A DNA stretch of 64,000 nt from Muricea muricata (Eukaryota > Cnidaria > Anthozoa > Malacalcyonacea > Plexauridae): assembly GCA_963855995.1 (NCBI GenBank), contig OY979719.1:6820001-6884000 (forward strand). The letters are read 5' to 3'. The notes under the pieces are model-generated. The model did not search any database, was not told the origin of the DNA, and saw only the letters and a list, made by a program, of their open reading frames with translations. Made by a program: the position numbers and the translations under genes. This document shows, piece by piece, positions 6,601 to 63,187 of this stretch (within the stretch, counting starts at the first letter, position 1; each line of letters opens with the position of its first letter).

Positions 6601-9600
6601 GAAATATGCTACCTACATTTCGCTATACAAAACGGTTGAAGTGGAAAATGTCCTTAATTAATGGATCGTTTTAGACGTTTTTGCATGTTGCGTTCCATGC
6701 GATTAGTAAACACTGAGTCAAATCTTTTCATTTCTTTGTTTGCAATGCAACGGCCAAAACGTGCCTGATTAGTACAGTAAACGTCTCTAATGAAATCGTA
6801 CCAGGATTAGCCATAATTTGACCTGCTTCACGAGCTACATTGGCTTCTCGTAGACCTGCATGTACAACAGAAAAAAAACAATATGTATTGTCACTGTTAT
6901 GTTTAACTATGGAGGTTTCTGCACTTAAAACTACATGGTTCAAATCAAGTTACAACAGCAGGGTACCACTTAATAACAGTTTTCGCTTTGTTGTTTTCTC
7001 AATAATTTAGCATAGTTATTTCACGTTGTTTAGCTCAATATAATCACTAAATAACGTGCTATTAACATAACATGTTCACTGCATGCGAAGCACACACAAC
7101 AATATTTTTACTATAATTTTATGGTTTAATGTTGTCAAAATACTATCCACTTGTCTCTAACGAAATAACGTCTTACCACACTTCAAGAATAAAAACAGGG
7201 AGGTGTGCGTGTGTGTGTGTGGGGGGGGGGAGGGGCAAAACACCCCCTGTTCTTTTAAAGTATTCCCAATATGAAGTAAAATTTAGTAAAAACGACATTA
7301 AACACGTTTGCATATTTTCAGCCACATTGCTTACTATTTAACAAGGGGTTTGATACCTGCCAAACTAATCTCTTAAAAAAAGGCCCTGAACCCAATGGAC
7401 CTTTAACCTTTTAGACGAAATTTTGAAAAAAATCGAAATAGGAGAAAATATTACCACAGCTTGAAAGAGCTTCCTAAACTTAGTAAAATTGCAAAGTTTG
7501 GTTGTAAAATGTTGTAAACTATAGAAAATATAGCCTTGCGAAGATAGCAAATTTTCTGTAGTTTTGTATTATCCGTGAGAAATGAATACCCAAGGGTATT
7601 ATTTTCCAACCGTAATACAAATGTATGAAAAATTTGCCAAATTCGCAAGGCTATATTTTCCATATTTTAGAACATTTCACAACCAAACTTTGCAATTTTA
7701 TTAAGTTTAGGATGCTCTTTCAAGATGTGGTAATATTTTTGCCTGTTTCGAATATTTTCAAAATTTCGTCTAAAAGGTTAAAGGTCCATTGTAAAATTGT
7801 AATTCAAATTTGATAAATACCCAGAGCTTTTCTATTTGTCAAAAAATTCCTGTTTGATTTATGCGTTTTTTTGTACAGCTAGACGATAGTTTTCTACCCC
7901 GGAAATACGGGGAGAAATTAAGGGTAAAAATGCTAAATGCGTTAATACAGTATCCACTCAAAAACACGTTGGTAGAGTACCTTCTACAAGCTGGTTGTAT
8001 TCTTCTCGCAATCTTTCTGTATCTGACATTTTTAAGCTACAAAATATCATTAAAAACGTTTGTTTTTTCATAGCTGTCATACTGCAGCCGATATACTGGT
8101 AAACCATAGCTGATATACTGGTAAACCATAGCTGATATACTGGTAAACCAATGATAGCCGATATACTGGTAAACCATAGCCAATATACTGGTAAACCATA
8201 TATACAGCTGGTATACTGGTAAACCATATATATAGCTGATATACTGGTAAAGCATAGCTGACATACTAGCGGCAGCTGATATGCTGGTAAACCATAGCCA
8301 ATATACTGGTAAAACATATATACAGATGATATACTGGTAAAGCATATATATAGCTGATATACTGGTAAACCATAGCTGATATACTGGTAAACCATAGCCA
8401 ATATATGTTGTGTTATGAATTATGTTAAGCTTATAATTTATGCTATGTTATTTGTAATTTATGCATGAAATGGCGGGAAAGTAAGATAAAAAATTAAAGG
8501 AGATGAGCATGAAAGCAACACGAGTGATTGAGTGAATTAAAACACAATATTGGCGACGAGAGAATGGCTACAGGACTCGATTTGTCAGGAATACAACAAT
8601 TCAGCCCATATGAAGATCCGACAACGCTTAGCAATCGCTGGACAGTCTGGTTGAAACGTTTCGAGCGCTTCGTTGTTGCCATGGACATTAAAGATACAAC
8701 TAGAAAGCGTAGTTTGCTGCTCTATCTTGCTGGCCCCGATGTTGAAAAGATTTTCGAAACTATCCCGGATAATGGCGAAGAAAAGGACTATGATGTTGCT
8801 GCCACGAAACTAACGGAGTATTTCGCCCCTAAGAAAAATATGTATGAAATTCATCTATTTCGCAAAGCACAACAACGCCAAGGTGAAACGCTTGACCAGT
8901 TCTACACGCGTTTGTGTCAGCTTGCAAAGACATGCGAATTTGCTGATGAAAAGCATGAAGTAAAAATACAGCTTATCGAACGGTGCTCATCAACCAGGGT
9001 TCGACGTAAAGCTTTACGCGAGGAAGCAATAACACTCGATGGCCTATTGAAATATGGACGCTCTTTGGAACTTTCTGAGCTGCAAGCAGGTGAGCTAGAA
9101 AAAACAAATGAACATTCTGGTTCTATTAATGCCTTGAATAAAAACACCGATCGATTCAAAAAATCATATCCATGGGGTTCATACCCACACCCTGGTGGCA
9201 AGACATCATGTCCTGCCTTTGGAAAGGAATGTGGGGGGTGTGGCCGCCTGGGTCATTTTAAGGAGGTGTGTCGAGCTAAACACACAGGTCGGTCAGGTTC
9301 ATTTAGCAGTAATCGAAGAAGTGTGAGGAAACGTATAAACCAAATGAATATTGCCAAGCAACCATCACATGAACAAGGGGGTGCCCAATCGTCTACCTCG
9401 GTCTCTAGTGACAGTGAAACCGACAACGAATATGCCTTTGTTGTGGAACCACAAAGCAATGTGGTCAACCATCCTACAGTTATGAAAACTGATACATCTC
9501 GAGTTTCCACTGCAAAATCATCACCACAAGCCCATCTTAAGATACACAAGACCAATGTTAATTTCTTGATAGACTCCGGAGCGACAATTAATATCTTAGA

Positions 9601-12600
9601 CCCTCGTGATTTCCAAGCAATATCGCAGCACTACAAAATTTTATTAACGCCCACACGCACCAAAGTCAAAGCATTCGGTTCTGATCGTCCAGTTGAGCTA
9701 TCTGGAAAATTTGATGCCGTTGTCGAGAGCAAGAAGCGCATGACTGTTGCAACATTTTATGTCACAAAACAAGAAAATGGATCCCTGCTCAGTTGCAACA
9801 CATCTCAAGAGCTTGGGCTAATTCATTTTCCCTGCATGCAGTCGGATTCTTCTAGCAAAAACCGAAGTGCGGCTGTTAAGCTAAAGAAAGCATCTAGGAC
9901 TACAATAACACGAAACCGTAATCCTGAAAGTAAATCGCAAACACCTGTGGTAGCTGAGGTAAAAGGAGCCTCCAAATCCGGCTGTTTTTGAAGGCATCGG
10001 GAAATTACAGGGTCATGAACAAAAGCTACATCTCGATGAATCTATTCCCCCCGTATCGCAGACATACCGTCGTACCCCTTTCCACCTCCGCAAGCAACTA
10101 GACATGTGGCTGGATACGTACCAAGCTGATGACATCATCGAGCCAGTGACTGATGAGCAGACAGACTGGGTAAGTGGCCTAGTTGTTGCTCCCAAACCTC
10201 GCAATCCGAAAGAAGTCCGAGTATGCGGTGACTACCGACAGGTAAATCAAGCAATCAAGCGTGAACGCCATCCAATACCGACGCTTGATGAGCTTCTTGA
10301 AGAAATGTCGGGTTCCAAAGTCTTTAGCAAAGTCGATCTCCGCGCCGGATATCATCAGATTCCCCTAGCGGCAGAATCACGACCAATCACTACGTTTGTC
10401 ACTCACCGTGGCCTTTTCCGATTTAAGCGTCTTCCCTTTGGTGTCAACTCAGCCAGCGAAGTCTTCCAGCACGCAATTCAAAATGCTCTTCGAGGGCTTC
10501 CTGGTACACGTAATATTGCTGATGATATCATCGTATGGGGGAGCAGTCAACAAGAACACGATGAACGCTTAAGTGCCTTGTTCCACCGTTTACATGAAAA
10601 GGGACTAACGGTTAACGCCGACAAATGCCTTTTTGGCCAGTCCTCCCTGTGGTTCTACGGATACACACTCACATCGAATGGTCTACAAGCAGATAAGAAA
10701 AAGGTCGAAGCTATCAAGCATACATCAATCCCGAAGGACGTTTCACAACTTCGTAGTTTTCTCGGACTGGCGAATTATTGCTCGCGATTCATTCCTGATT
10801 TCTCCACAATTACCTCACCACTAAGACATCTCACCCAGAAGGGAGTGAAATGGTCATGGACAGCCGCCCAGCAAACGGCATTTGACAACGTGAAAGCAGC
10901 CATTAGTCATGATTGCATCATGGCTTACTACGATCCCGCTAAAACAACTCGCTTGACTGTTGATGCTAGTCCCTATGGCCTTGGGGCTATTTTGTCCAAC
11001 ATCGATCAGGACGGCGCGGTGCGAAATGTTGCCTACGCTAGTCGTTCCCTCACACCCACTGAACAGAGGTACTCTCAGACCGAACGGGAAGCATTGGCCG
11101 TGGTATGGGGGTGTGAGAGATTCCATATGTACCTCATTGGAACCCCATTTGAACTTATTACTGATCATAAGGCCCTTGAAATTATCTATTCGCCAAAGTC
11201 AAAGCCTTCTGCTAGGATCGAGAGATGGGCTCTCCGTTTGCAGCAGTATGAGTATAAAGTCATTTACAAGCGAGATGCTGAAAACCCAGCAGATATTTTG
11301 TCTCGAATGCCCCTACCAACTCGCAAGTCCACACCTAATGTTGCAGATGAGTATGTGAACTTTGTTGCGCATCACGCTGTGCCCAAAGCCATGACATTAG
11401 AAGAAGTTGCTCAATCAACTTTGAAAGACAATGTGTTGCAAGCAGTCACACAATCAATACAAACAGATAAATGGAATGACGATCTTTTAGTTGCTCCATT
11501 CTACAACGTACGCAATGAACTGACTGTCACCATGGAAGGCGTTGTTCTACGTGGTCACCGTATTGTCATGCCAGAAGCATTGAGAGATCGCACTCTTGCC
11601 ATCGCACATCAAGGTCATCAAGGGATTGTAAAAACCAAACAATTGTTGCGGACAAAAGCTTGGTGGCCTAAGATTGATCAACACGTGGAGAGCCTGATTA
11701 AGAATCGCCTTGCTTGCCAATCGGTTGCACCGCCCAATCCAACTACGCCGTTGTGTGAAACGGAAATGCCTTCAAAGCCATGGAGTTATCTTCATATGGA
11801 CTTATGCGGCCCATTCCCTTCAGGCGAAAGCGTGCTCGTGGTTATTGATGCATATTCTCGGTTCCCAGAAGTGGACATTTTAAAATCAACCACCGCACCC
11901 TCCATGATCAATAAGCTAAACCGGATATTTTCTACGCATGGATTTACAGACAGCGTAACGTCAGACAACGGTCCACAATTTACCTGTCATGAAATGGCAG
12001 ACTATTTTTCCCAACGTGGTATTAAGCACCACCATGTTACACCACTATGGCCTCAAGCGAATGGCTTAGCGGAGTCCTTTATGAAACCTCTCAATAAAGC
12101 AATTCGAACTGCTCATGCTCAAGGACAGGTATGGCAAAAAGAACTACCTAAGTTCTTGCTCAATTATCGTACGACGCCACACACCACGACAAAAGTGCCC
12201 CAGCACAGCTGTTATTTAATCGAGTGGTTAACAATGGGATCCCAGCAACTGCAAACCCGAATCTTCACCCAGTTCCTACACAAGAGCATGCGAAAGCCCA
12301 ACTTTGTGATGCTGAGCGTAAGAAGAAGAGTAAGATGTACGCGGATATAAAACGACATGCAAAAGAAACACATATTAAAGTTGGGGACATAGTACTTCTC
12401 AAGCAACCGAAAGAAAATAAGCTTTCTACACGATTCAGTCCAAACCCATACCAGGTGGTGGCCATGAAAGGTCACATGGTTACTGGCACTCGTGGTGGCC
12501 ACCAAGTCACTCGGCACACTTCATTTTTCAAAAAGTTCGTGGGAAAAGTGGGTAAGAAACCAATTGAAGATGATGTATCAGAAGATCAGGACGAGGAGGC

Positions 12601-15600
12601 GCCATACCGTTATGCACCAGAAGAAGCAGAACCACCTCAAAGGAGATATCCAATGCGAAATAGGCGCCAAACATCTTTCTATGAAGCTGTTCAAGGAGTA
12701 TCGAAGGCTAAGACACAAATATTCTAGAGAAGTATGAAAATAGGCTTTGTTGAGTTTTGTTATCTCATAAGTTAAAAGGAACGTGTGAAGACTTTGCTGA
12801 ACGGCAACTTGATATTGCTTTGTTTTACTAGTTTTACCAATATTAGGACACGTATAGTAACTGCGTTATTAGGGATAGACATTGAGTCTAAAAACAATAG
12901 GGGAGATGTTGTGTTATGAATTATGTTAAGCTTATAATTTATGCTATGTTATTTGTAATTTATGCATGAAATGGCGGGAAAGTAAGATAAAAAATTAAAG
13001 GTGATGAGCATGAAAGCAACACGAGTGATTGAGTGAATTAAAACACAATAATATACTGGTAAACCATACATACAGCTGATATACTGGTAAACCATAGCTG
13101 ACATACTGCAGCTGACATGTTGGTAAACGATAGCCAATATACTGGTAAAACATATAAATAGCTGATATACTGGTAAAGCATAGCTGATATACTCATAGTA
13201 AACCATAGCCAACACACTGCAGCTGATATGCTGATATACTGTCAAACCATGAACGATATAATGGTACTTTTAACTATAATTGTGTTCTTGGTGACAATGT
13301 GTAATGCGGATTGGTCGCTCGCAAACCAATCAGAAGACTCCTTTGGAATATAGTTATGGACTGGAACTTACTTATTTATAGTTTGTGAAAGTGACTCTAC
13401 GTTATTGTGCGCTCTTTCTAGCGTTCTTCTCGTAATGTTTACACTCATTGATTCTATACACACATTATCTAAAAGAAATTTGAGAAACATATATAGTGCT
13501 ACTTCAAGGACTCTTAATGATATGAAGATACTTACAACACCATACTGAAGGCTATGAATAACGTATCATTCACAAGAGGTAACGGTAAATGTGCCTTCAA
13601 CTCGAAATGAATTCATATATAAGTCGAAATTCAAAACATCAAGTAAAGGCAGAAATCAAACCTACGCCCGTGCAATGCTCAGACCACTAAGCTACGGGGG
13701 TAGCTGACAAAAACATGCGTAATTTAGATGTATGCTAGGCTGATAACACCTGCGAATCGGTTGAGGGTCAACCAATAACATTATTGTGTGGTACTTTGAA
13801 TTTCGACATGTGTATGATTCCTACATGACATTAAGACAAATTTACCCTTTAAAAGTATGATCAAAAATCGTGTGCTACATAATCATACTAAATTATTTAC
13901 ACTCAACTCGCTAACACACATTACCGTACCCAATCTAATATACACATTTCAGAATCATCCTCAGATATATGAAAACTAGATTCATATTAATCTGAAACTG
14001 CAAAGAGCAACGAAAACTTCGATGTCTCGGACTGGATTCGAACTCACATCTTCGGGTTTCTGGACCGACGCTCTACCAATTGAGCTATCGAGCCATTTTC
14101 ATATCTCTGAGCATGGTTCTGGAATAGAATCGAAACACTGCCCGTCCTCAAAAACAAGGTCACATAATTTGACAATTACATGAATAGCTCTTGCTCATGT
14201 CAAATACCTCCGTAGCTCAGTGGTCAGAGCGACGTACGATTCCTGTCGGGGGACCAATAGCTCATGATGAATTTTTGTCCATTAAAACATATTTACTCGC
14301 TAGTAATACTTCCCACATTGCTTCTATGTGGCATCTCATTTCCTCACCTATATTGTGAGCTTCGTCAAACACCACAACAGATGATTTGGCCAACTCTTTG
14401 GATACCAAGTCAGCAATTTTTGGATCAAGTAAGTAGTGATAGCTGTAGACGACCACGTTGGCGTAGTATATCTAAATATCGAAACACCACGTGATTTCAT
14501 CGTCGCCACAAGAGCAGCGGCATGCGACAAGGGCAGAGGCATGGCACAAGGGCAGGGGCATGAAACAAGGGCAGGGGCATGGCACAAGGGAAGGGGCATG
14601 GCACAAGGGAAGGGGCATGCCACAAGGGAAGGGGCATGCCACAAGGGCACCGGCATGCCACAACAGCGTGAGCCAACTACCGCGGGTCCTTATCCCCGAA
14701 CACTCTCCGTCACCTTTCCCCGTGGGAGGAAGCCAGAGCGCCTCGAAACCCACGACTTCCGGCGGAGCATTGACTCTTTTCACACGCGGGCTGCGTTCAA
14801 GTAAGCTCGAGAAATTCTAAGTGAAAATCGAACCCGCGACCTTAAAGGCGAACGGCAAGTCGTCTAACCAGGGGCGGGTTCATCAAAGCTGGATTAAAAT
14901 TTAACCCACTCTTTTAGTTTCTTTATTTCAAAAGGTCCTTTTTTGAAACTCGAGACAAGAAAAATTCAGTGAATCCAAGCAAGACTTATGAAAAATTTTT
15001 TTCATTCTCTCTGAATTTGGAGTTAACCCAGGCTTAACTATATAACCTACTTTTGAAAACCGGCCGCACCATTGAAAGAAATTAACTTTTTGTGTATAGG
15101 AAAATTCTGCTGTCCATATGTCACTTACCGCATATCTTGCCAGAAAGTAAGAACACCAGCCCTTCTCTCTACCAACATCCTGCAAATCGCCCTAATGGCA
15201 ACACGGAAAAGATTATTTCGCTAGCCTCAGAATGACAGTTTGTCAGTGCATAATTTTAGGTGATAGTTATAATTCGAGCGACAGATATGGATCATGGGTA
15301 TTTGGAATAGCAAGACCGCAGTCGTTCATGCTTGACGTTGCAGGTTTGAATCCCAACCTTGCCTCGTTCTTTTAAACTAGTCTTTATTTCTACGTGTCTC
15401 CTTTTTCTAAGTGTTTTTTAAAACTTTTTAAACTGTAGGTGTTTATGTTGACTGTTGATTCTTGCTTTGTTCTTCTTCAGTAAATGTTGCAAAACGGCTA
15501 ATGTGCGTTATATCGACTACTGTCATTCTAAAGTAAGCGAAAAAACTTCTATATCGGGCAACACTTTCATTGCTCTAGGTCGCCCAACACTGTTTGTGTT

Positions 15601-25954: not shown

Positions 25955-28900
25955 CTTGTCACAAATCATATCAAACAGTGACAACAACATAGCAGTGATT
26001 CCTTGACATGGTTGGGAAACCAATGCAATCAGAAGTTTTGGATAATTTGTCAATGTTTGCACCAAGTACCTGAAAAACATTACCAGAAATAAATATTTTA
26101 TGAAGCCTATTATGAGTCAGTCGTGTTGTTCGGCGTTCTTGGTACAGCAATTTGCGTCCAATCACTAAGAGCAAACATTTTCGCGAGGTTTTTCACGTTT
26201 GTAACGTGACGTTTGGCCGTTTGAAACGGAATACATTTAGATGCAAAACCCGACCATAGATTAAGGATACATAGGTGTGCAACTATGCGTGTATAGCTTG
26301 GGTACGTCAGACGCGCACTCATTTCTAGCTGCACATGCGACGCTTTATAAGGAATTAGATAGGGAAATATCAAATAAACGGCGATTTTAAGAAAACTTTC
26401 CGCGAGATTGCCTTGATTCACAGAAATGTATAAAAAGAAGTTTCTCTGTATATATCAAGCAACAAATGAAGTTATGTTTTTGTCCTGGTTAAAAAACGGC
26501 AGAAACCATTCTTCCGTAAGACATTTATATTGAAATTCGAACAAATGTACTTGCCAGAAATGCGTGTGGATATGACGTAATCCGTGAGACAGCGAAATCA
26601 TAGGCGAAGTATCCCCATTTGCACATCTATGTATCCTTAATATCCCGTTTTGTAACTGCAACTGCCACGTTATGTCACATCTATTACATGCGTATTTTGA
26701 TGCATGCGTATCTACAGCATTACTGTAGATAAATACTAAGAAACTAAAATATATGAGAATCGTAAACTATCATCCAGATATACAAAGAGATTATTCGGAC
26801 AAGATATTACACCAGAAAGACAGAGATCATTCCGACAATAAAAAGAGATGATCTCTCCATACATTTGGGTATCACATTGTTGAAATGACCTCTATATTTC
26901 TTTCTACACCTGGAATATCATTTAAAATTCTCATATGTATTTTAGGGGTTGTTTTAGTATTTCAACTCGGTTAACCACAGTATAGGGAATAAACAGCAGA
27001 GCCACTGAGCAGTGCAACATGTCCCCCTATTTTTATGCAATTTACTGACCAGAATAATGGCAGAACAGCCAGTTCAGCGTTTCTATTGGCCAGAAAAGAC
27101 AACTGACTGGCCAGAACCTGCATAATGAACATGCATAATGCGACATTTATGGCAACACAAACTTCAAAGGTTTCGACTCAAGTGGCTCTTCTGCTTATTT
27201 TCTATTCTGTGGTGATACTATAGAGACACAGAAGAGCATACAGAAAGTCATCTTTAATGATTTTTGCATTAGAGCTATTGCATTAGAGCCCACAGCACAT
27301 GCCCTAAAAGGAAGCATCCTCCTAAAGATATTCAAAAACAGTAGATCTCCAGGGAGCGACAGCTTCTGTTTTGGGCACCCTCTCAAGGACTAATTACGAC
27401 GAATGGCACTTTATGAAAATCATTGAAGATAGTCTTCCGTATTACTTTTCTCTATAAAAAAATCAAGACTATAGACAAAAAAAGAAATGCATAAAAAATA
27501 TGAAAACAACTGGAATCTTATAAAATACAGCAAATTTCCTTAAAGCTATAAGGTGCTTTTCTTTTATCAAATACAACTTTTTAATAGCTTCTATTTGATA
27601 TATGGCCTGATTTTTTATGCTAAGTATTTGAACTCAAAACTCAGAAAAACTCGATCAAAAAGTCTTGCAAAATTTTGGCATATTTCAGAACCTTCGAGAT
27701 ATGACAAACTAGATTCATATTAATCTGACACTGCAGAGAACAACGAAAAATTCGTTGTCTCAAGCGGGATTCAAACTCCCATGTTCAGGTTTCAAGACCG
27801 CCTCTCCACCAATTGAGCTATCAAGCCAACTGGGATTGGTAGTGAGTCTTATCCAATTTAATTAAGTGCACAAAATATTTTTCGACAATTTAACGCTTGT
27901 CTTTAAGAAACACTGAAATGCTGTGCATCCTTAATTTAATCTTTAAGAAACACTGAAATACTGTGCATCCTTAATTTAAAGACAAGCATTAAGTCATCAC
28001 AAAAATATTTCATGCACTTAAATTGGATAAGACTTGCTACCAATCCCAGTTGACTTGATAGCTCAATTGGTAGAGCGGCGGTCTACAAACCTGAAGATGC
28101 GAGTTTGAATCCCGCTCAAGACAACCAATTTTTTGTTGTTCTCTGCAATGTCAGATTAATATGAATCTAATTTTGGCACAATTTTATGAACTTTATTCTT
28201 CAGTATGGAAGCACTGCATTTCAGTGTGGAAGCACTAATTAAAGTCAGGGGGAATCCCCCTCCCCCAAACAGAAATCCTTAGATATTTGGGGGGACTTCC
28301 ACCCAACCCCCAAACTCTTAAATATGCCTGAATAAATACCACAATATTGAATTTTAAAATGCTGCTATTTGCAATCTACCGTTAACTGTGACCAATCAAA
28401 TGTTTTGTTTTATGTTTAATTACTTGACGTTTGGGCACGTAAATGTCACGTTTTATAATTACACATTTTCTTGCTTATTTTAACTCTTAATGTCATTTTA
28501 AATAAACTAAATGACATTCCCTATAATCCTTCTTCATTGTGATAAGTTTTTATGATACACTTGTCTTCAACTATTTGAGTGAGCAAATGTCAACAATTGT
28601 TATTACAAAACATGACGTTTACGCGCCCAAACGTCAACAGAAATAAACGTAAAACAAAGCGTTTGATTGGTTACAGTTAAGGTAGATTGCAAATGGTAGT
28701 ATCACCAGAGGCAAACAAGTTGCATAATACCTGGCTTGAGATAACATGAGATTTTCTTTTTCCACTCCTGTTTTGGACATATCATCAAGTTTCAAGCCAC
28801 ATAACACCTCACTTTGCAACCCATGCACAACTACCGCCTCACAATTGCTTGTTGCTGCATCTTCCAATGCTGTAATCAAATCTTTCATTATCTTCAGGCA

Positions 28901-35990: not shown

Positions 35991-37667
35991 TGACTTCTAG
36001 CGAAGATAGATTTGTCCCCCAGGGCTGCTGACACCTTTCTTGTGATTAGCTTTACTCACGCCACAAGGATCATGTTTTGGCCAGTCAAAATCTGTGCTTC
36101 CTTCAAAGTAATAATAAGCCTGATCTGAAGTGCGGAGAACTGGTCCATGTACGTTCCACCTCAGAAAATCTGGTACCACACCGCTACAAGCTGTCGTCAC
36201 GTTCTTGATATTCTCACAACTAACTGACCACCTTGCTTTGTGATTATACTTCCACCATTTGGTTCACAAACAATCCAATCATTAACGGTTGATTTAACCA
36301 TAAACTCTTCTCCAACATCTTTCCATACTTTCCAGTCGAGAGCCCCAAGTGATGACTCGCTGAGTGGAGGAGTGGTTGAGATTAGGACATTGGCTTTTGG
36401 GGCAGGCCAGTTTGGGCGGGGGGTTACGGCATTGCGGCGTGCCTCAAAACTGTTGTAGTTTGTAAAGCTGTAGCTGTAAACCAAGGTCCAGCCTCCCCCG
36501 TGAGTTTCCATATCACAGTAAACTTGAAATGGTTTACTGCATGCATGCTGGATCCAGTAAATCCTGGAAACTGCAAATCTATTTGCTGCTTGGACATCTT
36601 TACAAGATTATCCCGGCTTCAATTGTGACTCGCCTAAAATCATCTAAATAAAAGTAATGAACATTTTATAAGAGGCTTTATTTCTAAACAATAATATTAC
36701 TGATGATAAGAATATCTTCTAATATTAAATCAAAATCACTCACAGTTGCTCGCACATCTTGATAAAACTTCCACTTTCCAGTTTTTTTACTTTTGCCATT
36801 CCTTTTTTCGTGAGTTTTCTTGCTGAGTTGACAATTCACGACGTATTTATTTGACTTGGTTCTGTAGTTGAAACCCACGCATGTTGATTTTGAAACACAT
36901 CTCATTGAACATTCAGTTTGAGAATGAACAGTATGATTGGATATAATATCGTCTGGATGCAATGAGGAGCCTAGTTTAAAAAAGGGATAGTCTTTAAGTC
37001 ATATATTGCAATGTGAGGATACGTCTATACCTACTAGCTCGGTTTTCTGCGGCAACGGAGCTCACATGATGAGCTGAATCTTACGTAGCAAGAGCTTCAG
37101 AGGCAAAGCACTACACGAAGTCAAGTTGAATTTCAGTATTTTTTACTGCCTTCTTTTGAAAGCTTGCTAAGATTTAGCATTTATATCGCTATGCATCGAA
37201 AGGTAATTTAGGAACTAATCTTAACCCATCCTCTCTGACCAATCCTGTCCCATTATTTGTCGGAAACCGCCGAGTATTTGAGACAAAACGTGGACAAATA
37301 CTTCACGCAAGTGTCATGCTTGTGTATGGAAAATGAAGAACTCTGAGCAGACGAAGGAACGGAGTTTAAACAAAAATTTTTACATATTAAAATTCTCAGT
37401 ACATTTAGTACAAATTCTGTCTGTATATATTGCAAAAGGTCTATGTACTTGGCTCCATATTTTGAAATTTTTTAAAATTCCGTTGACAAGACCTTTTTGC
37501 GTTTAATTGTGTTGACATTGCCAAGAGGATGGCTAAACTTTCGAGAAGAAATAAAATATAGGAAAATGAGATCCATTATTTATTTATTTCTTTCCTTTCA
37601 GAATTTCACTGAACAAAACCTGTTTTATATTTATATTAGCTATATTTGCGTTATGAGTTTCCAATAC

Positions 37668-41377: not shown

Positions 41378-43680
41378 GACGGAGTGACTGATTCTGTGTC
41401 AGTGAAATAAATTATTTTCAATAAAAGAACACTCTGAAAGCTCTTTTTTATATACACCCGTATGCACATATTGATTATTCTATTGTCAAAATTTACTTAC
41501 AAAGGGCGGGGGGATCACGTTTCACAGGGGGGGGGGGGCAGTTCCATAATTCACGTGTCTTAAAAAAGCAGCCTCACGTTCATCTACATTACAGTTTGTT
41601 TAAAGACTTATATCACGTTCCTTTTGATAGACTAGATCTAATTTCTTCAATATGTATAATCCTCCAATATGTATTCATCTCTGAAAGCCCTCCGAAGAAT
41701 TTTTACTCTTATTTGAACAATCGACTCATAGTTCAGGAGCTTAACATCTACTATTCTCATTTCACAGAGCAATTCTATTGAAAGTCACGCCTCACGGGAG
41801 TAGAAAAAATCACATTTCGCGCTACCAAAATCAAGCATCCCACATTTCACACGAGCAGATATTAGCCAATTACGGCTGACGAAAATACTTTTTACCACCC
41901 TCAGTATTATTAAGTCAAACGACATATGTTTTGACTGTTTTATATTTCTTCGTGTCGTGACTATTCCATGCTACATCTTCACCTTAAAAGTTTAAAGTTA
42001 TACAGAAAATTTACATGACATGCAGAACATCCACATGGTTATTATATTTATTACTTTATCACGTGTTATATCGAACAAATGAGTAAATTCAGAAGTTTGA
42101 CTTCTGGCTGCGATAGATTTGTCCACCAGTTGGGTTTGCCGAGTCGTCTTTTGTGATTGGCTAGACTCATGCATGGCACAGTAAATATATATTAATAAGT
42201 AAATATTAATAAGTTGAAGGACATATCGCTACGTAATATTTTTTTATTTTTTGTGTTGTTTTTTCTGTTATTGTGCCGATGCAGTGTTAACAATACTATT
42301 TCAAAAGTAAGTAAGTAAGTAAGTTATATAGAGAAGTTATGTATATGGTCATTACTTCTGCATGTTCTATCACGTGTTATGTCGAATGTAAAAGTTATAT
42401 TTCTAGCGAAGATAGATTTGTCCACCAGGGCTGCTGACACCTTTCTTGTGATTAGTATTACCTAAACCACAAGGATCATGTACTGGCCAGGCACCATCTG
42501 TGCTTCCTTCAAAGTAATAAAAATACTGCTCTGAAACACGGAGAGCCACTCCACGTGGCCACCACTTCACTTCATCTGGTACCACACCGTTACAAGTTGT
42601 CGCCACGTTCTTGATATTCTCACAACTAACTGATCCATCTTGTTTGGTGACTATACTTCCACCATTTGGTTGACAAACAATCCAATCATTTACTGTTGAT
42701 CATGATTTGACCAGAAACTCTTCTCCAACATCTTTCCATACCTTCCAGTCGAGAGCCCCAAGTGATGACTCATTGACTGGAGGAGTGGTTGAGATTGGGA
42801 CATTGGTGTTTGGGACAGGCCAATTTGGACGGGGGGTTACGGCATTTGTGATTTCCTTAAAACTGCTGTACTTTGTAAAGCTGTAGCTGTAAACCAAGGT
42901 CCAGCCTCCCCCGTAAGTTTCCATATCACAGTAAACTTGAAATGGTTTACTGCATGCATGCTGCATCCAGTAAATTCTGGAAACTGCAAATCTATTTGCT
43001 GCTTGGACATCTTTACAAGATTGTCCTGGGTTCAATTGCGACTCGCCTAAAATCATCTAAATAAAAGCAATGAATATTTTATAAGAAGCTTTATTTCTAA
43101 ACAATAATGTTGCTGATAATAACAATATCTTCTAATATTAATTCAAAATCACTCACAGTTGCTCGCACATCTTGATAAAACTTCCACTTTACAGTTTTTT
43201 TACTTTTGCCATTCCTTTTTTCGTGAGTTTTCGTGCTGAGTTGACAATTCACGACGTATTCATTTGACTTGGTTCTGTAGTTGAAACCCACGCATGTTGA
43301 TTTTGAAACGCATCTCATTGAACATTCATTTTGGGAATGGACAGTATGATTGGATATAATATCTTCTGGATGCAATGAGGAGCCTAGTTTAAAAAAGGGA
43401 TAATGTCATATATTGCAATGTGAGGATATGTCTATACCTACTAGCTCGGTTTACCGCGTCAACGGAGCTCACATGATGAGCTGAATCTTACGTAGCAAGA
43501 GCTTCAGAGGCAAAGCACGACACGAAGTCAAGTTGAATTTCAGTATTTTTTACTGGCTTCTTTTGAAAGCTTGCTAAGATTTAGGAATTATATCGCTATG
43601 CATCGAAAGGTGGTTTAGGAACTAATCTTAACCCATCCTCTCTGACCAATCCTGTCGCATTATTTGTCGGAAACCGCCGA
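41378..43680. repeat. Tandem duplication unit 1 (2.56-kb period)
   Basis: Carries gene copy B. Landmarks recur in the second unit at a nearly constant offset: GTGACGGAGTGACTGATTCT at 41378 and 43932; fibrinogen stop 42403 and 44965; PAN end 43157 and 45713. Offsets are 2554-2562 bp. Confidence 0.85.
42403..43383 (-). pseudogene. PAN + fibrinogen-like copy B (broken, no signal exon)
   Basis: PAN exon 43157-43383 and fibrinogen-like exon 42403-43056. The second exon carries a 6-base insertion that repeats TGATCA at about 42700 and creates an in-frame TGA (VKS-stop-STVNDW); otherwise the frame is open through NHKKGVSSPGGQIYLR. The duplication joint at about 43680 cuts off the region where the signal exon should be. 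THGGG is changed to TYGGG. Confidence 0.85.
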
Positions 43681-43931: not shown

Positions 43932-46260
43932 GACGGAGTGACTGATTCTGTGTGAGTGAAATAAATTATTTTCAATAAAAGAACACTCTGAAAGGTCTTT
44001 TTTATATACACCCGTATGCATATATTGATTATTCTATTGTGAAAATTTACTTACAAAGGGGGGGGGGGGGGGGGATCACGTTTCACAGGGGGAAAGCAGT
44101 TTCATAATTCACGTGTCTTAAAAAAGCAGCCTCACGTTCATCTACATTACAGTTTGTTTAAAGACTTATATGACGTTCCTTTTGATAGACTAGATCTTAT
44201 TTCTTCAATATGTATAATCCTCCAATATGTATTCATCTCTGACAGCCCTCCGAAGAATTTTTGCTCTTATTTGAACAATCGACTCATAGTTCAGGAGCTT
44301 GACATCTACTATTCTCATTTCACAGAGCAATTCTATTGAGAGTCACGCCTCACGGGAGTAGAAAAAATCACATTTCGCGCTACCAAAATCAAGCATCTCA
44401 CATTTCACACGAGCAGATATTAGCCAATTACGGCTGACGAAAATACTTTTTACCACCCTCAGTATTATTAAGTCAAAGGACATATGTTTTGACTGTTTTA
44501 TATTTCTTCGTGTCGTGACTATTCCATGCTACATCTTCACCTTAAAAGTTTAAAGTTATACAGAAAATTTACATGACGTGCAGAACATCCTCCACATGGT
44601 TATTATACTTATTACTTTATCACGTGTTATATCGAACAAAATGAGTAAATTCAGAAGTTTGACTTCTGACTGCGATAGATTTGTCCACCAGTTGGGTTCG
44701 CCGAGTCGTTTTTTGTGATTGGCTAGACTCATTCATGGCACAGTAAATATATATTAATTAGTATATATTAATAAGTTGAAGGACATATCGCTACGTAATA
44801 TTTTTTTATTTTTTGTGTTGTTTTTTCTGTTATTGTGCCGATGCAGTGTTAATAATACTATTTTAAAAGTAATTAAGTAAGTAAGTTATATAGAGAAGTT
44901 ATGTATATGGTCATTACTTCTGCATGTTCCATCACGTGTTATGTCGAATGTAAAAGTTTGACTTCTAGCGAAGATAGATTTGTCCTCCAGGGTTGCTGAC
45001 ACCTTTCTTGTGATTAGTTTTAGTCATGCCACAAGGATCATGTACTGGCCAGCCACCATCTGTGCTTCCATCAAAGTAATAAAAATACTGCTTTGAAACA
45101 CGAAGAGCCACTCCACGTGACCACCAGTTCAATTCATCTGGTACCACACCGCTACAAGCTGTCGCCACGTTCTTGATGTTCTCACAACTAACTGATCCAT
45201 CTTGTTTGGTGACTATACTTCCACCATTTGGTTGACAAACAATCCAATCATTTACTGTTGATTTGACCAGAAACTCTTCTCCAACATCTTTCCATACCTT
45301 CCAGTCGAGAGCCCCAAGTGATGACTCACTGACTGGAGGAGTGGTTGAGATTGGGACATTGGTGTTTGGGACAGGCCAATTTGGACGGGGGGTTACGGCA
45401 TTTGTGAATTCCTTAAAACTGCTGTAGTTTGTAAAGCTGTAGCTGTAAACCAAGGTCCAGCCTCCCCCGTGAGTTTCCATATCACAGTAAACTTGAAATG
45501 GTTTACTGCATGCATGCTGGATCCAGTAAATTCTGGAAACTGCAAATCTATTTGCTGCTTGGACATCTTTACAAGATTGTCCTGGGTTCAATTGCGACTC
45601 GCCTAAAATCATCTAAATAAAAGCAATGAATATTTTATAAGAAGCTTTATTTCTAAACAATAATGTTGCTGATAATAACAATATCTTCTAATATTAATTC
45701 AAAATCACTCACAGTTGCTCGCACATCTTGATAAAACTTCCACTTTCCAGTTTTTTTACTTTTTCCATTCCTTTTTTTGTAAGTTTTCTTGCTGAGTTGA
45801 CAATTAACGACGTATTTATTTGACTCAGTTCTGTAGTTGAAACCCACGCATGTTGATTTTGAAACACATCTCATTGAACATTCAGTTTGAGAATGAACAG
45901 TATGATTGGATATAATATCGTCTGGATGCAATGAGGAGCCTAGTTTAAAAAAAGGGATAGTCTTTAAGTCATATATTACAATGTGAGGATGCGTCTATAC
46001 CTACTAGCTCGGTTTACCGCGTCAACGGAGCTCACATGATGAGCTGAATCTTACGTAGCAAGAGCTTCAGAGGCAAAGCACGACACGAAGCCAAGTTGAA
46101 TTTCTGTATTTTTTACTGCCTTCTTTTGAAAGCTTGCTAAGATTTCGCATTTATATCGCTATGCATCGAAAGGTGGTTTAGGAACTAATCTTAACCCATC
46201 CTCTCTGCCCAATCCTGTCACATTATTTGTCGGAAACCGCCGAGTATTTGAGACAAAACC
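43932..46260. repeat. Tandem duplication unit 2 (2.56-kb period)
   Basis: Partner of 41378-43680; carries exons 2 and 3 of gene copy C. G-run length and small indels are the main differences. Confidence 0.85.
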
Positions 46261-51345: not shown

Positions 51346-51546
51346 ATAAACATTCAAATTTACGTCAAAACATATAAGGGAGCAAAACAATGCGACAAGA
51401 TAGAAGAAGATGAGCATTGCAATTGACTGTGACTGATATATGTAATTGTGTAAAAGTAGTATGGCCGATGGCGATCGAGCTAAACAGTTAGAATTGTTAA
51501 TGGCACTTTTTGTGACTGGTCAATTTTTCTCTTTCTTTCAACATTT

Positions 51547-52002
51547 GCCCCCTTGAAAATAAATGCCTTACAAAAAGCATCGTTTACAAGGCAAGTGTCA
51601 CCGAAGAAAACAGCAACGACACGAAAGTTTACATTGGCAGCACGTCCACGACATTCAAGGAGCGGTTTCGAAATCACAAGAAATCCATCGCCAACCCCTT
51701 GTATGCAACTAATACGGAACTATCAAAGTACGTGTGGTCTTTAAAGGAGAAGAACAAGGAATATAACATCAAATGAGACATTGTAAAGCAAGTGCCGTTA
51801 TACAAGTCAGGAGGGAAACAATGTAGCTTGTGTAGCAATGCGAAGCTATACATCTTGAAGGCAGAAAAATGGTCAATCCTGAACAAAAGAAGTGAACTTT
51901 TCTCGCGTTGCATCCACCAAAGAAGGTTTCTCGCGGGAAAATTTAACCGCGCGAATTCCACCAGCGCACCAAGAAACCTACGTGACGTAAGCAAACAATA
52001 AG
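51547..52002 (+). pseudogene. Penelope-like element GIY-YIG endonuclease end, copy 1
   Basis: The frame opens CPLENKCLTKSIVYKASV, then KVYIGSTSTTFKERFRNHKK, ELSKYVWSLK and CSLCSNAKLYILKAEK, ending LNKRSELFSRCIH. This is the cysteine-rich linker plus GIY-YIG nuclease typical of Penelope-like retroelements. One TGA replaces the tryptophan codon near 51774 (NIK-stop-DIV). The reverse transcriptase part is absent (5' truncation). Confidence 0.85.
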
Positions 52003-52019
52003 CAACGGTCAACAACTCT

Positions 52020-52071
52020 TTAGTTGTCTGATGATTGCCTGTAATGGCATGAAACTCTGAGTAACAACTAA
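52020..52071 (+). ncRNA. Hammerhead ribozyme 1 (Penelope-like element)
   Basis: The conserved core is complete: CUGAUGA at 52028-52034 and GAAA at 52051-52054. Stem II pairs UGCC with GGCA. Stem III is a minimal CUC/GAG hairpin. The cleavage triplet is GUA at 52061-52063. Stem I pairs UUAGUUGU (52020-52027) with ACAACUAA (52064-52071), eight perfect pairs. Such type I minimal-stem-III hammerheads are known from Penelope-like elements, where they process tandem transcripts. It lies between two tandem element copies, as expected. Confidence 0.9.
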
Positions 52072-52073
52072 TT

Positions 52074-52565
52074 GAAACTTCTTTGAAACAACTTTGCAAC
52101 TGTAGAAATGCAAACGAGTGTCCACTTAACAATATGTGCTTAACGAAAGATTTGGTTTACCAAGCTGAAGTGATAACAAAAGAAGACAACGACATAAAAA
52201 CCTACATTGGTATGACAGCGACAACATTTACAGATAGATACAGAAATCACAAGAAATCATTCGAAGATATCAAACATGAGAATGATACTGAACTCTCTAA
52301 GCATGTTTGGAAATTAAAGTTAGACAAGAAACAATTTAGTATATACTGGTCGATTTTATCCCGAGCAAGTTCAATCAAAGCTGGAGGAAATAGTTGCAAT
52401 TTATGTCTAGAAGAGAAATTGCAAATACTCCGTAATTGTAATTCTAGGTCTTGTTTAAATAAACGTAGCGAACTTTTCACGAAATGCGTGCATGCGTGCA
52501 AATTTCACGCGGGACGATTCAAACGAACACGCGTCAGCAAACATACCGCGAATAGTATAACGTAA
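52074..52565 (+). CDS. Penelope-like element GIY-YIG endonuclease end, copy 2 (5'-truncated)
   Basis: About 160 open codons to TAA at 52563, from CNCRNANECPLNNMCLTK through VYQAEV, KTYIGMTATTFTDRYRNHKK, ELSKHVWKLKLDKKQFSIYW, CNLCLEEKLQILR and LNKRSELFTKC. The nuclease nicks DNA for target-primed reverse transcription. No stop interrupts it, but the upstream reverse transcriptase is missing and there is no proper ATG, so the element is not autonomous. It starts immediately after hammerhead 1. Confidence 0.85.
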   Translation, partial: ETSLKQLCNCRNANECPLNNMCLTKDLVYQAEVITKEDNDIKTYIGMTATTFTDRYRNHKKSFEDIKHENDTELSKHVWKLKLDKKQFSIYWSILSRASSIKAGGNSCNLCLEEKLQILRNCNSRSCLNKRSELFTKCVHACKFHAGRFKRTRVSKHTANSIT

Positions 52566-52586
52566 CAGCTCAACCGTATTAGTAAT

Positions 52587-52629
52587 GTTGCCTGAAGATT
52601 GCTTGTTGCATGAAACTTAAAGTAGCAAC
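52587..52629 (+). ncRNA. Hammerhead ribozyme 2 (Penelope-like element)
   Basis: CUGAAGA (52592-52598, allowed by the CUGANGA consensus) and GAAA (52612-52615). Stem II UGC/GCA; stem III CUU/AAG; cleavage triplet GUA at 52622-52624. Stem I GUUGC (52587-52591) pairs with GCAAC (52625-52629). It follows the stop of the GIY-YIG frame by 22 bp. Confidence 0.85.
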
Positions 52630-52656
52630 TTATTCAATTGAAAAATTGTATTAAAT

Positions 52657-52738
<82 letters not shown>

Positions 52739-52844: not shown

Positions 52845-52887
52845 GTTGCTACTTTAAGTTTCATGCAACAAGCAATCTTCAGGCAAC
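52845..52887 (-). ncRNA. Hammerhead ribozyme motif 3, inverted copy
   Basis: Minus-strand mirror of 52587-52629: CUGAAGA at 52882-52876, GAAA, cleavage triplet GUA and a GUUGC/GCAAC stem I are all intact. Confidence 0.8.
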
Positions 52888-52904: not shown

Positions 52905-53100
52905 TCATAGAAATAATAGATATAGAATGCGTGCTCCTATGGGGACGATTCAAACAAACACGCGTCAGCAAACATACCGCGAATTGTATAACGTAACAGC
53001 TCAACCGTATTAGTATTGTTGCCCTGAAGATTGCTTGTTGCATGAAACTTAAAGTAGCAACTTATTCAATTGAAAAATTGTATTAAATTATTTTTATTAT
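52905..53100 (+). mobile_element. Third Penelope-like tail with altered hammerhead
   Basis: 52938-53100 repeats 52501-52660 (GGACGATTCAAAC, ACACGCGTCAGCAAACATAC and onward). The hammerhead at 53018-53061 has one additional C between stem I and CUGAAGA, which should disturb the junction. Confidence 0.75.
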
Positions 53101-60535: not shown

Positions 60536-60905
60536 ACGCTTCTATAAGCTGTCGCCACGTTCTTGATATTCACACAACTAACTGGTCTATTTTGCTCTGT
60601 GACAACATTTCCACCATTTGGTTGACAAACAATCGTTCACGGTTGATTTGACCATAAACTCTTCTCCAGCATCTTTCCATACATTCCAGTCTAGAGCCCC
60701 AAGTGATGACTCGTTAAGTGGAGGAGTGGTTGGCTTTAGGGGAAGGCCGTTGCTGACTGAATCAAAACTATCAGTGGTCTGTAAACATTTAGCTGTAAAC
60801 CAAGGTCCAGCCTCCCCCGAAATTACTATATCACAGTAAACTTGAAATGGTGTTGGATCCAGTAGACGGACCCAGTAAATTTTGGAAACTGCAAATTTAT
60901 TTGTT
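60536..60905 (-). pseudogene. Fibrinogen-like exon fragment, minus strand
   Basis: It includes the complement of NVATAYR.., GGNVVTEQ, the DWIVCQPN region with deletions, SSLGALDWNVW and the GGGWTLVY end mutated around 60820. It abuts the plus-strand fragment at 60535 tail to tail. A decayed signal exon of the same series lies at 61060-61165 (minus). Confidence 0.75.
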
Positions 60906-61314
60906 GCTAGGATATAGAAGCTTGTACTTCAAGATTACTGTTATATAGTGTATTGAGCCACCTTAAATCATACGTTTTATGAGAAAGTAACGATGGCAAA
61001 ACGTCCATATACTTACCTCCATATGTTGAAATTATATATATTTTTAGATATATATTTTTTGAAATTCTGTTCACATGACTTTTAATTGTGTTGACATTGC
61101 CAAGAGGATGGCTAAACTTTCGAGAAGAAATAAAATATAGAAAATGAGATCCATTATTTATTTATTTCTTTCCTTTCAGAATTTCACTGAACAATACCTG
61201 TTTTATATTTATATTAGTTATATTTGTGTTATGAGTTTCCAATACTAAATTACAATACAAATGTTTAGTGCATGTTTATATCATGTGTTCAAACAAAATG
61301 TTAAAGTTTCCTTT

Positions 61315-63187
61315 TTAACGAAGATAGATATGTCCACCAGGGTTGCTGACACCTTTCATGTGATTAGCCTTGCCCATGCCACAAGGATCATGTATTGGCC
61401 ACCAATAATCTGTATTTCCTTGAAAAAAATAATAGATCTTTGAAGCACGGAGACTCGGTCCACCTGCAAGCCACTTCAGGCGATCTGGTACCGCACCGCT
61501 ACAAGCTGTCGCCACGTTCTTGATATTCGCACAACTAACTGATCCATCTTGCTGGGTGACTATACTTCCACCATTTGGTTGACAAACAATCCAATCATTT
61601 ACTGTTGATTTGACCATAAACTCTTCTCCAAAATCTTTCCATACCTTCCAGTCGAGAGCCCCAAGTGATGACTCGCTGAGTGGAGGAGTGGTTGAGATTG
61701 GGACTTTGGCGTTTGAGGTAGGCCAATTTGGACGGGAGGTTACGGCATTGCTGTCTGCTGTAAATCTGTTGTATTTTGTAAAGGTGTAGCTGTAAACCAA
61801 GGTCCAGCCTCCCCCGTGAGTTTCCATATCACAGTAAACTTGAAATGGTTTACTGCCTGCGTGCTGGATCCAGTAAATTCTGGAAACTGCAAATCTATTT
61901 GTTGCTTGGATATCTTTACAAGATTGTGCTGGGTTTAATTGTGGCTTGCCCAAAATCGCCTAAATAAAGGTTATGAATATTTTACTACCTCCTCCGCAGG
62001 CGTTTTACGGATTACGGGCTGAGAAAGTTTGTGGGTCCACTTACCCTATTCTCAAATTTCACACCTGCAAATTACTCCCGCCCGCACCGAGCCTCCCGCA
62101 CGGAAAGGCCTGCGGAGGAGGTAGTATATTTTATAATAGGCTTCACTTTTTAACAATAATATTAATGATAGTAAGAATATTTTAATTTGAAATATTAATT
62201 CAAAATTGTTCTTTGACTCACAGTTGGTCGCACTTCTTGATAAAATTTCCACCTTCCAGTTTCGTGACATTTGTCATTCTTTTTTTCGAACGTTTTCTTG
62301 CTGAGTTGACAATTTACGTATTTATTTGACTCAGTTCTGTAGTTGAAACCCACGCATGATGATTTTGAAACACATCTCATTAAACATTCAGTTTGGGAAT
62401 GAACAGTATGATTGGATATAATATCGTCTGGATGCAATGAGGAGCCTGCATGGTTTAAAAAAGGGATATTCTTTAAGCTATATATTGCTATGTGAGGATA
62501 CGTCTATACGTACTAGCTCGGTTTAGTGCGTCAACGAAGCTCGCTGACTGTTACGTAGGAACAGCTTCAGAGGAGACACGAAGCCAAGTTGAATTTTAGT
62601 ATTTTTTACTGCCTTATTTTGAAAGCTTGCTAAGATTTAGCATTTATTTCGCTATGCATCGAAAGGTAATTTAGGAACTAATCTTAAGCCATCCTGTCAA
62701 ATTATTACTCGAAGGAAACCGCGGAGTAGGTGAAGAAAACATCGCAAATTCCTCACGCACGAAGTGTCATGCTCATGAATGAGAAATAAAATCGCATAGC
62801 CCATCATTATAAAGCAACAAAAAGTAATCAGTTTTATTCTACGCCACAAGGCACGGTTTTGCCATGACAACGGAGTTTCAACACAAATTTATCACATTAA
62901 AATCTTGAGTACATTTAGCACAAATTTCGTAGGTAGGTAAATATGTAAAACGAACCTTGTACTTCCGGATTACTGTAATGTAGTGTATTGAAAAACGCAT
63001 AGAGCCACCTTAGGTCATACTTGTTACGGGAAAATATCGATTGCAAAACGTCTATATACTTACTTCCATATTTTGACATTTTTTTGAAAATCCTTTGACG
63101 AGACCTTTTTGTGTCTGATTGTGTTGACATTGCAAAGAGGATGGCTAAACATTCGAGAAGAAATAAAATATAGAAAATGAAATCCAT
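61315..63187 (-). CDS. Secreted PAN + fibrinogen-like protein, copy D (intact)
   Basis: Exons 63064-63187, 62222-62445, 61315-61959 give 331 codons with the stop, that is 330 residues, with canonical splice sites and matching phases (1 and 0). Signal peptide MDFIFYILFLLECLAILFAM. PAN/apple part with HTVHSQTECLMRCVSKSSCV and [12 protein letters not shown]. Fibrinogen-type exon with FQVYCDMETHGGGWTLVYSY, NAVTSRPNWPTSNAK, DWKVWKDFGEEFMVKSTVND and HDPCGMGKANHMKG, ending GGHIYLR. Compact introns of 618 and 262 bp. It is the most self-consistent member of the cluster. A secreted matrix or lectin-like role is inferred from domains only. The second intron contains an inverted-repeat insertion (61987-62125). 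Confidence 0.9.
61987..62125. mobile_element. Small MITE in intron of copy D
   Basis: The ends TACCTCCTCCGCAGGC and GCCTGCGGAGGAGGTA are perfect inverted repeats. The flanks ATATTTTAC and TATATTTTAT suggest a target duplication of about 8-9 bp; paralogous introns (for example 45635, GAATATTTTATAAGAAGC) lack the element. Confidence 0.8.

Follow-up and report, generated by a model that had tools for sequence, protein, structure and literature searches.

A 64,000-nucleotide stretch of the cnidarian Muricea muricata (contig OY979719.1, forward strand), referred to here as the window, contains a minimal type I hammerhead ribozyme motif at positions 52020-52071 of its + strand. The motif is a real and ordinary member of a known ribozyme class, and it lies in a dead copy of a Penelope-like element (PLE). 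It is probably the 3'-terminal hammerhead of a 5'-truncated PLE insertion whose template RNA was left uncut or was re-joined at the ribozyme site, rather than being cut from a tandem array. A role in cutting tandem copies into units, as the original prediction proposed, is not supported at the window. The window corresponds to C4:6820001-6884000 in a genome of 453 Mb and 74 contigs. Its content is eukaryotic, with an LTR retrotransposon and with fibrinogen-like and PAN domains.

Read from the sequence, the motif has the complete minimal type I architecture. The CUGAUGA core, the GAAA, the GUA triplet and stems II and III were all located between 52028 and 52063, and the eight-pair stem I, whose two strands are 36 nt apart, is as originally claimed. 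The features used to recognise minimal type I hammerheads of PLEs are a CUGANGA...GAAA core, three stems, an NUH cut site and an open stem I, and all are present. Stem II is flanked by a U.U mismatch (52035/52050). Taken alone, stem III has three pairs (52054-52056 with 52060-52062) and a 3-nt loop; in a double hammerhead, where two copies are joined through stem III, it has eight. Cleavage by the motif is a predicted activity, its position being placed by analogy with known hammerheads. The association with a PLE was also correctly foreseen, since an endonuclease remnant lies just 5' of the motif, and a family copy at locus L012 has the same layout. Hammerheads are indeed known as a class in PLEs, minimal type I forms having reportedly been described by Cervera and De la Pena in 2014 and by Lunse, Weinberg and Breaker in 2017.

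Several searches bear on whether the motif is real. A descriptor scan of both strands of the window finds three hammerhead motifs; a slightly tighter descriptor again finds three, compared with none in 300 windows simulated with a first-order Markov model. The core pattern of the PLE family to which the motif belongs (family 1) has 62 matches in the genome, one of which (L042) is another sequence, against none for the reversed pattern. A generic minimal pattern gives 738 matches against 13 in its reversed control. A covariance model was also built from nine other core types of the same genome, none of them family 1. It detects 52028-52063 with 39 bits (E 7e-8). Three further strong matches of the same search are motifs of family 2, which is included in the model, and the remaining four of the eight matches listed have E values of 3.9-5.7.

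Against these results stand the searches with Rfam models. The window motif stays under the gathering score of every Rfam hammerhead family, and the type I family is absent from the results even at E up to 10. The best score, 19.3 bits where 48.5 are required, belongs to the type III family RF00008 (E 0.05 when 131 nt were searched), and the relaxed-threshold list for a wider stretch is filled by AT repeats. A chance match to the hammerhead consensus would agree with the Rfam outcome; its probability is very nearly negligible, because the genome pattern counts, the simulated windows and the model without family 1 all contradict it. The sub-threshold Rfam score is taken here as a limit of the Rfam models for minimal variants.

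Comparison among the hammerheads of the genome gives a second line of evidence. Twelve core types were picked by eye from the listed sites of the generic pattern and from the window; minor variants were not tabulated, and three of the sequence types listed were excluded because they are probably chance matches. Nine types were aligned (among them two that differ little from two others), the omitted ones being f1, an f1 variant and f10, a type that forms only one stem II pair. In this alignment 91.7% of 72 cells are paired. The shuffled mean is 79.3%, none of 500 shuffles is as high, and sliding the partner by 1-3 columns leaves at most 58.1% of cells paired. Two-sided changes are seen in four of the eight pairs, a number equalled by 12 of the 500 shuffles, and the fourth pair of stem II forms in only three of the nine types. 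Positions 10.1/11.1 beside stem II are U.U in 11 of the 12 tabulated types and C.A in one; the usual hammerhead has an ordinary pair next to the core at this place.

Because different families keep the core and stem II with compensatory changes, selection is indicated in active lineages, even if the window copy is dead. The same conservation speaks against regarding the motif as an inactive fossil, kept only through the youth of its copies, the closest of which are about 97-98% identical. Such a fossil would agree with the 5' truncation and the in-frame stop of the window copy, and with the disfavoured monomer fold described below, and is judged unlikely.

Stem III has the consensus ACU-C/U-N-G/A-AGU across the 12 tabulated types. 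Its fourth pair, which is formed across a single-base loop, is CG in six of the nine aligned types and UA in three. Such a pair is not expected in a hairpin with a one-base loop, and a near-palindromic stem III fits the known double-hammerhead form of PLEs. Double hammerheads have been reported in PLEs, and a palindromic stem III is said to be needed for them (PMC6466107; here and below, statements cited by PMC number refer to the available parts of the paper). A very short stem III able to dimerise is found here in three respects: the near-palindrome recurs in the 12 types, its fourth pair covaries, and two strands of 52020-52071 have a double hammerhead as their minimum fold (-31.3 kcal/mol). 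Double-hammerhead folding was judged from the program's two-strand minimum only.

A number of observations weigh against this picture. For a single copy the predicted minimum is a fold other than the hammerhead, whether the motif is folded alone or in context; in a 79-nt context the hammerhead has -10.3 kcal/mol, compared with -13.7 for the minimum, and the predicted pair probabilities are 0.067 for stem I and 0.05 for stem III. In the usual family-1 sequence the stem I value is 0.239. The hammerhead fold is disfavoured partly because the 5' strand of stem I has an alternative partner within 52012-52027, and pairing with it would replace the hammerhead. No double hammerhead appears in the two-strand minimum fold when the family-2 motif or a family-3 stretch is used. 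The energy gained by dimerisation is matched by 39 of 300 shuffles for the window motif and by 276 of 300 for family 2, and has been dropped as support. Since the energy gain is unexceptional, it is covariation that carries the argument for a dimer. Here too there are limits: the first three pairs of stem III are uninformative because the search pattern fixes them, two listed sites depart at the fourth pair (broken at C1:6049969, a wobble at C1:51351387), and the core types with a UA fourth pair may share ancestry.

The surroundings of the motif consist of PLE pieces of two families, which span 51536 to about 53170 of the window. The motif had been placed between two tandem Penelope copies, and this holds in so far as both flanks code for the C-terminal endonuclease of PLEs. 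The two fragments belong to different families, with a protein identity of 49%, and their genome copies form separate sets, with identities of 88-98% for family 1 and 91-98% for family 2 among the matches listed. The family-1 fragment has up to 98% identity to other copies in the genome, again among the matches listed, and its endonuclease remnant matches PF01541 over 51540-51773 with 24.5 bits (E 3.5e-5), above the cut-off of 22.6. With 20.2 bits for the GIY-YIG domain, the longer copy of family 1 in L012 stays under the same cut-off. The open frame of the family-2 fragment (52086-52562) has no Pfam match, and its assignment as an endonuclease C-terminus is by the identity to family 1. A telomerase-like reverse transcriptase is not present in the truncated copies of the window; in L010, a frame next to the copy of family 1 resembles a PLE reverse transcriptase and has no Pfam match at E 0.01.

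The two fragments meet 17-22 nt beyond the cut site, within a shortened family-1 tail that ends after 17 nt instead of about 37 or about 109. Because the neighbouring fragments come from different PLE families, 52020-52071 does not lie at a unit boundary. Two origins are most likely for the fusion: reverse transcription may have started on a family-2 RNA and switched to a family-1 RNA as its template, or family 2 may have been inserted while target sequence was lost. The first, a jump between RNAs packaged together, is somewhat favoured for the window; against it, the junction shows no clean microhomology. The same reading could cover a second fusion, at L013 (1518-3344), in which a family-3 hammerhead continues, 24 nt after the cut site and within its tail, as a family-1 fragment; the sequence at the join is AAAT. 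A family-3 hammerhead on the opposite strand lies 1.3 kb from this fusion.

The orientation of neighbouring hammerheads can be used to ask how PLE copies are arranged elsewhere in the genome. The sample for all types comprises 99 listed sites from the first 51.5 Mb of C1, out of the 738 generic matches, with one overlapping duplicate dropped. All 24 pairs of adjacent same-type hammerheads less than 5 kb apart are divergent, while adjacent pairs of different types at this distance are convergent in two cases and on the same strand in two. For exact family-1 cores genome-wide (61 of the 62 matches, L042 being dropped), 18 of 19 close pairs are divergent and one is on the same strand. A tandem same-strand arrangement, which is named for double hammerheads and is not a structural property, is thus not seen among same-type neighbours in general.

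These counts bear on the role of the ribozyme. On one reading, hammerheads would cut tandem PLE transcripts into unit-length, perhaps circular, RNAs that are then copied; the single same-strand family-1 pair (2.4 kb apart, on C3) agrees with such a process. As same-type pairs are divergent, the tandem-unit picture fails for most elements seen. For the window itself it is rejected on the comparison of families and the orientation counts, and the claim that the motif stands where tandem copies would be cut into units is not supported. As a general role, unit cutting is quite unlikely.

Further evidence comes from the ends of the inserts. Thirty of the 62 matches to the family-1 pattern, which itself stops at the cut site, were fetched, and in 29 of them family-1 sequence continues beyond the cut site into the tail; the thirtieth, L042, is not family 1. 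Most displayed family-1 insert ends run into (TA)n. Counted by eye, the ends lie either about 37 nt (short) or about 109 nt (long) past the cut site. Since the inserted copies cross the cut site, the RNA that was copied must have been uncut or re-joined there. A ligated circle would likewise yield inserts crossing the site; two recurrent ends past the site suit two start points on an uncut RNA, which speaks against unit cutting.

The ends also occur in pairs. Insert ends were classified with a BLAST-based script into 68 rows, of which 44 make up 22 divergent inserts whose 3' ends could both be read; 18 of these inserts belong to family 1 and four to family 2, one of the latter in the window. 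The other 24 rows were left out as lacking a partner within the retrieved stretch, as partial matches or as the cut family-1 end of the window. Two ends left uncertain by the script (C2:12494949 and C3:7926878) were read by eye as short, and the insert at C7:8978637 spans 200 unread bases. All 44 of these 3' ends are located beyond the cut site. Twenty inserts combine a short and a long tail, one has two short tails and one has two long tails. When the same ends are paired at random, at least 20 mixed pairs arise in 231 of 1,000,000 trials (2.3e-4), a result suggesting that short and long ends are both used in every insertion.

The two arms of an insert probably derive from one source locus. 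Partner arms are more alike than re-paired arms when compared over 190 nt (10 inserts; 0 of 20,000 permutations) and over 130 nt (11 inserts; 2 of 20,000). The result has its limits. The likeness is weak over 70 nt (17 inserts; 1223 of 20,000) and over 440 nt (5 inserts; 309 of 20,000), inserts among the 18 of family 1 were skipped if their arms were too short or less than 85% alike, and gene conversion between arms could also make them alike. At L043 (1501-1596), an insert extends barely beyond two divergent hammerheads and their tails, and forms a perfect inverted repeat over the 144 bp compared, centred on GAATTC.

Taken together, these observations are consistent with the following model, in which the motif is the 3'-terminal hammerhead of a PLE template that is not cut into units. 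In longer family copies the hammerhead follows the end of the protein frame and precedes two places at which inserts end; these ends (for family 1, the short and long ones given above) can be read as start points of reverse transcription. By itself the hammerhead may cut poorly; most cutting would require either a double hammerhead, linked through the palindromic stem III, or the help of a protein, as judged from published PLE hammerheads. Because inserts derive from RNA that was uncut or re-joined at the site, production of the template probably does not depend on cutting, which would more likely strip the start region from RNAs, or act after copying.

A further proposal is that the palindromic stem III serves first as a dimer link between two template RNAs and only second as part of a cutter. 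Each insertion would then draw on such a linked pair, one RNA being copied from the near start point and the other from the far one, with priming on a different target strand for each. The proposal is given only a slim chance. If true, it would explain why head-to-head inserts have a short tail and a long one, how fusions of different families arise, and why the motif is retained although templates are not cut.

The features of the motif and of its PLE neighbourhood are collected in Table 1. In the family-2 hammerhead of the right arm, one extra base (53023) lies between stem I and the core.

Table 1. Hammerhead motifs and PLE fragments in the window; the two strands of stem I pair with each other.
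Feature	Positions	Strand	Basis
Minimal type I hammerhead ribozyme motif	52020-52071	+	sequence, descriptor scan, Markov control, covariance model
Stem I, 5' strand	52020-52027	+	descriptor scan
Core CUGAUGA	52028-52034	+	descriptor scan, covariance model
Stem II hairpin, 4 pairs, 6-nt loop	52036-52049 (52036-52039 with 52046-52049)	+	descriptor scan, core-type table
GAAA	52051-52054	+	sequence
Stem III ACUCUGAGU, near-palindrome	52054-52062	+	core-type table, two-strand fold
GUA triplet, predicted cut after 52063	52061-52063	+	sequence; cut position by analogy with known hammerheads
Stem I, 3' strand	52064-52071	+	descriptor scan
Family-1 PLE fragment lacking its 5' part; comprises the endonuclease frame end, the 3' untranslated region, the hammerhead and a shortened tail	51536-52080	+	family copies
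GIY-YIG endonuclease remnant, in-frame stop at 51774-51776	51537-51965	+	Pfam, translation
Junction of family-1 tail and family-2 interior, short stretch	52081-52085	+	copy matches
Family-2 PLE fragment, 5'-truncated; short tail into (TA)n	52086-52657	+	copies up to 98% identical among matches listed
Family-2 hammerhead, 5-pair stem I	52587-52629	+	descriptor, covariance model
Family-2 hammerhead, left arm of head-to-head insert, short tail	52845-52887	-	descriptor, covariance model, tail analysis
Family-2 hammerhead core, right arm of same insert, long tail	53024-53056	+	sequence, covariance model, tail analysis

Elsewhere in the window, a retrotransposon of the long terminal repeat type occupies 8528-12727, with a gag-like frame, reverse transcriptase, RNase H and integrase (Pfam), and is flanked by related short tandem repeats at 8086-8405 and 13065-13209. 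Repeated gene copies with PAN and fibrinogen-C-like parts lie on the minus strand at 36197-36998, 42403-43405, 44965-45994 and 60587-62503, three frames being recognised by Pfam and the others alike by eye. A telomere-like repeat of 14 perfect ACCCTA copies is found inside the contig at 40904-40987. Rfam tRNA models match 28051-28127 (47.5 bits) and 14023-14094 (36.3 bits), and ARAGORN calls only the former, as tRNA-Cys with anticodon aca; both are possibly tRNA-derived repeats.

The motif can be compared with several known systems. With the minimal type I hammerheads of PLEs it has in common the core, the short stem III and a site beside the end of a PLE endonuclease. Eukaryotic double hammerheads are said to need a genomic tandem arrangement (PMC6466107), whereas same-type pairs here are head-to-head. 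In Acropora millepora, more than 6000 type I motifs in 16 families are described, most of them of the minimal PLE kind; the 1508 canonical members lie in tandem repeats of 220-240 bp, the retrozymes (PMC7229834), and the window motif does not. Metazoan retrozymes are recognised by canonical hammerheads in tandem repeats of 150-450 bp; the motif lies among coding PLE fragments, and no such array is present in the window.

The closest parallels are found in two other elements. PAc (Poseidon of Anolis carolinensis) is likewise a GIY-YIG PLE that carries a hammerhead and has AT-rich targets, with a tail beyond the cut site delimited by two start points of reverse transcription. In vitro, the two start points bound a tail, both strands are cut and extended, and the start point is the same for either strand; the hammerhead is protein-assisted, and hammerhead mutants still insert (PMC11167929). 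The PAc hammerhead overlaps the start of the frame (PMC11167929), while no + strand frame of at least 90 codons spans the motif here. The family-1 tail, counted by eye as about 72 nt, compares with 30-40 bp quoted for Penelope in the same source. Penelope copies of Adineta vaga are similar in having head-to-head inverted ends, an optional tail on one of them and palindromic junctions. For that species individual copies are described and self-priming on an antisense template is proposed (PMC3846280), whereas here the short and long combination is counted, in 20 of 22 inserts. This count was not found in the published work covered, which includes little of the older Penelope literature, and it is accordingly not claimed as unpublished.

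The role of minimal hammerheads in PLEs has been called unknown or a mystery (PMC7761336). The counts of insert ends and of their pairing are a by-product of more interest than the motif itself. Many young copies record their own making in their two ends, which lie beyond the cut site and of which one is usually short and the other long. Whether the template is cut or not, and whether one RNA or two are used, thereby becomes countable in any PLE-rich genome.
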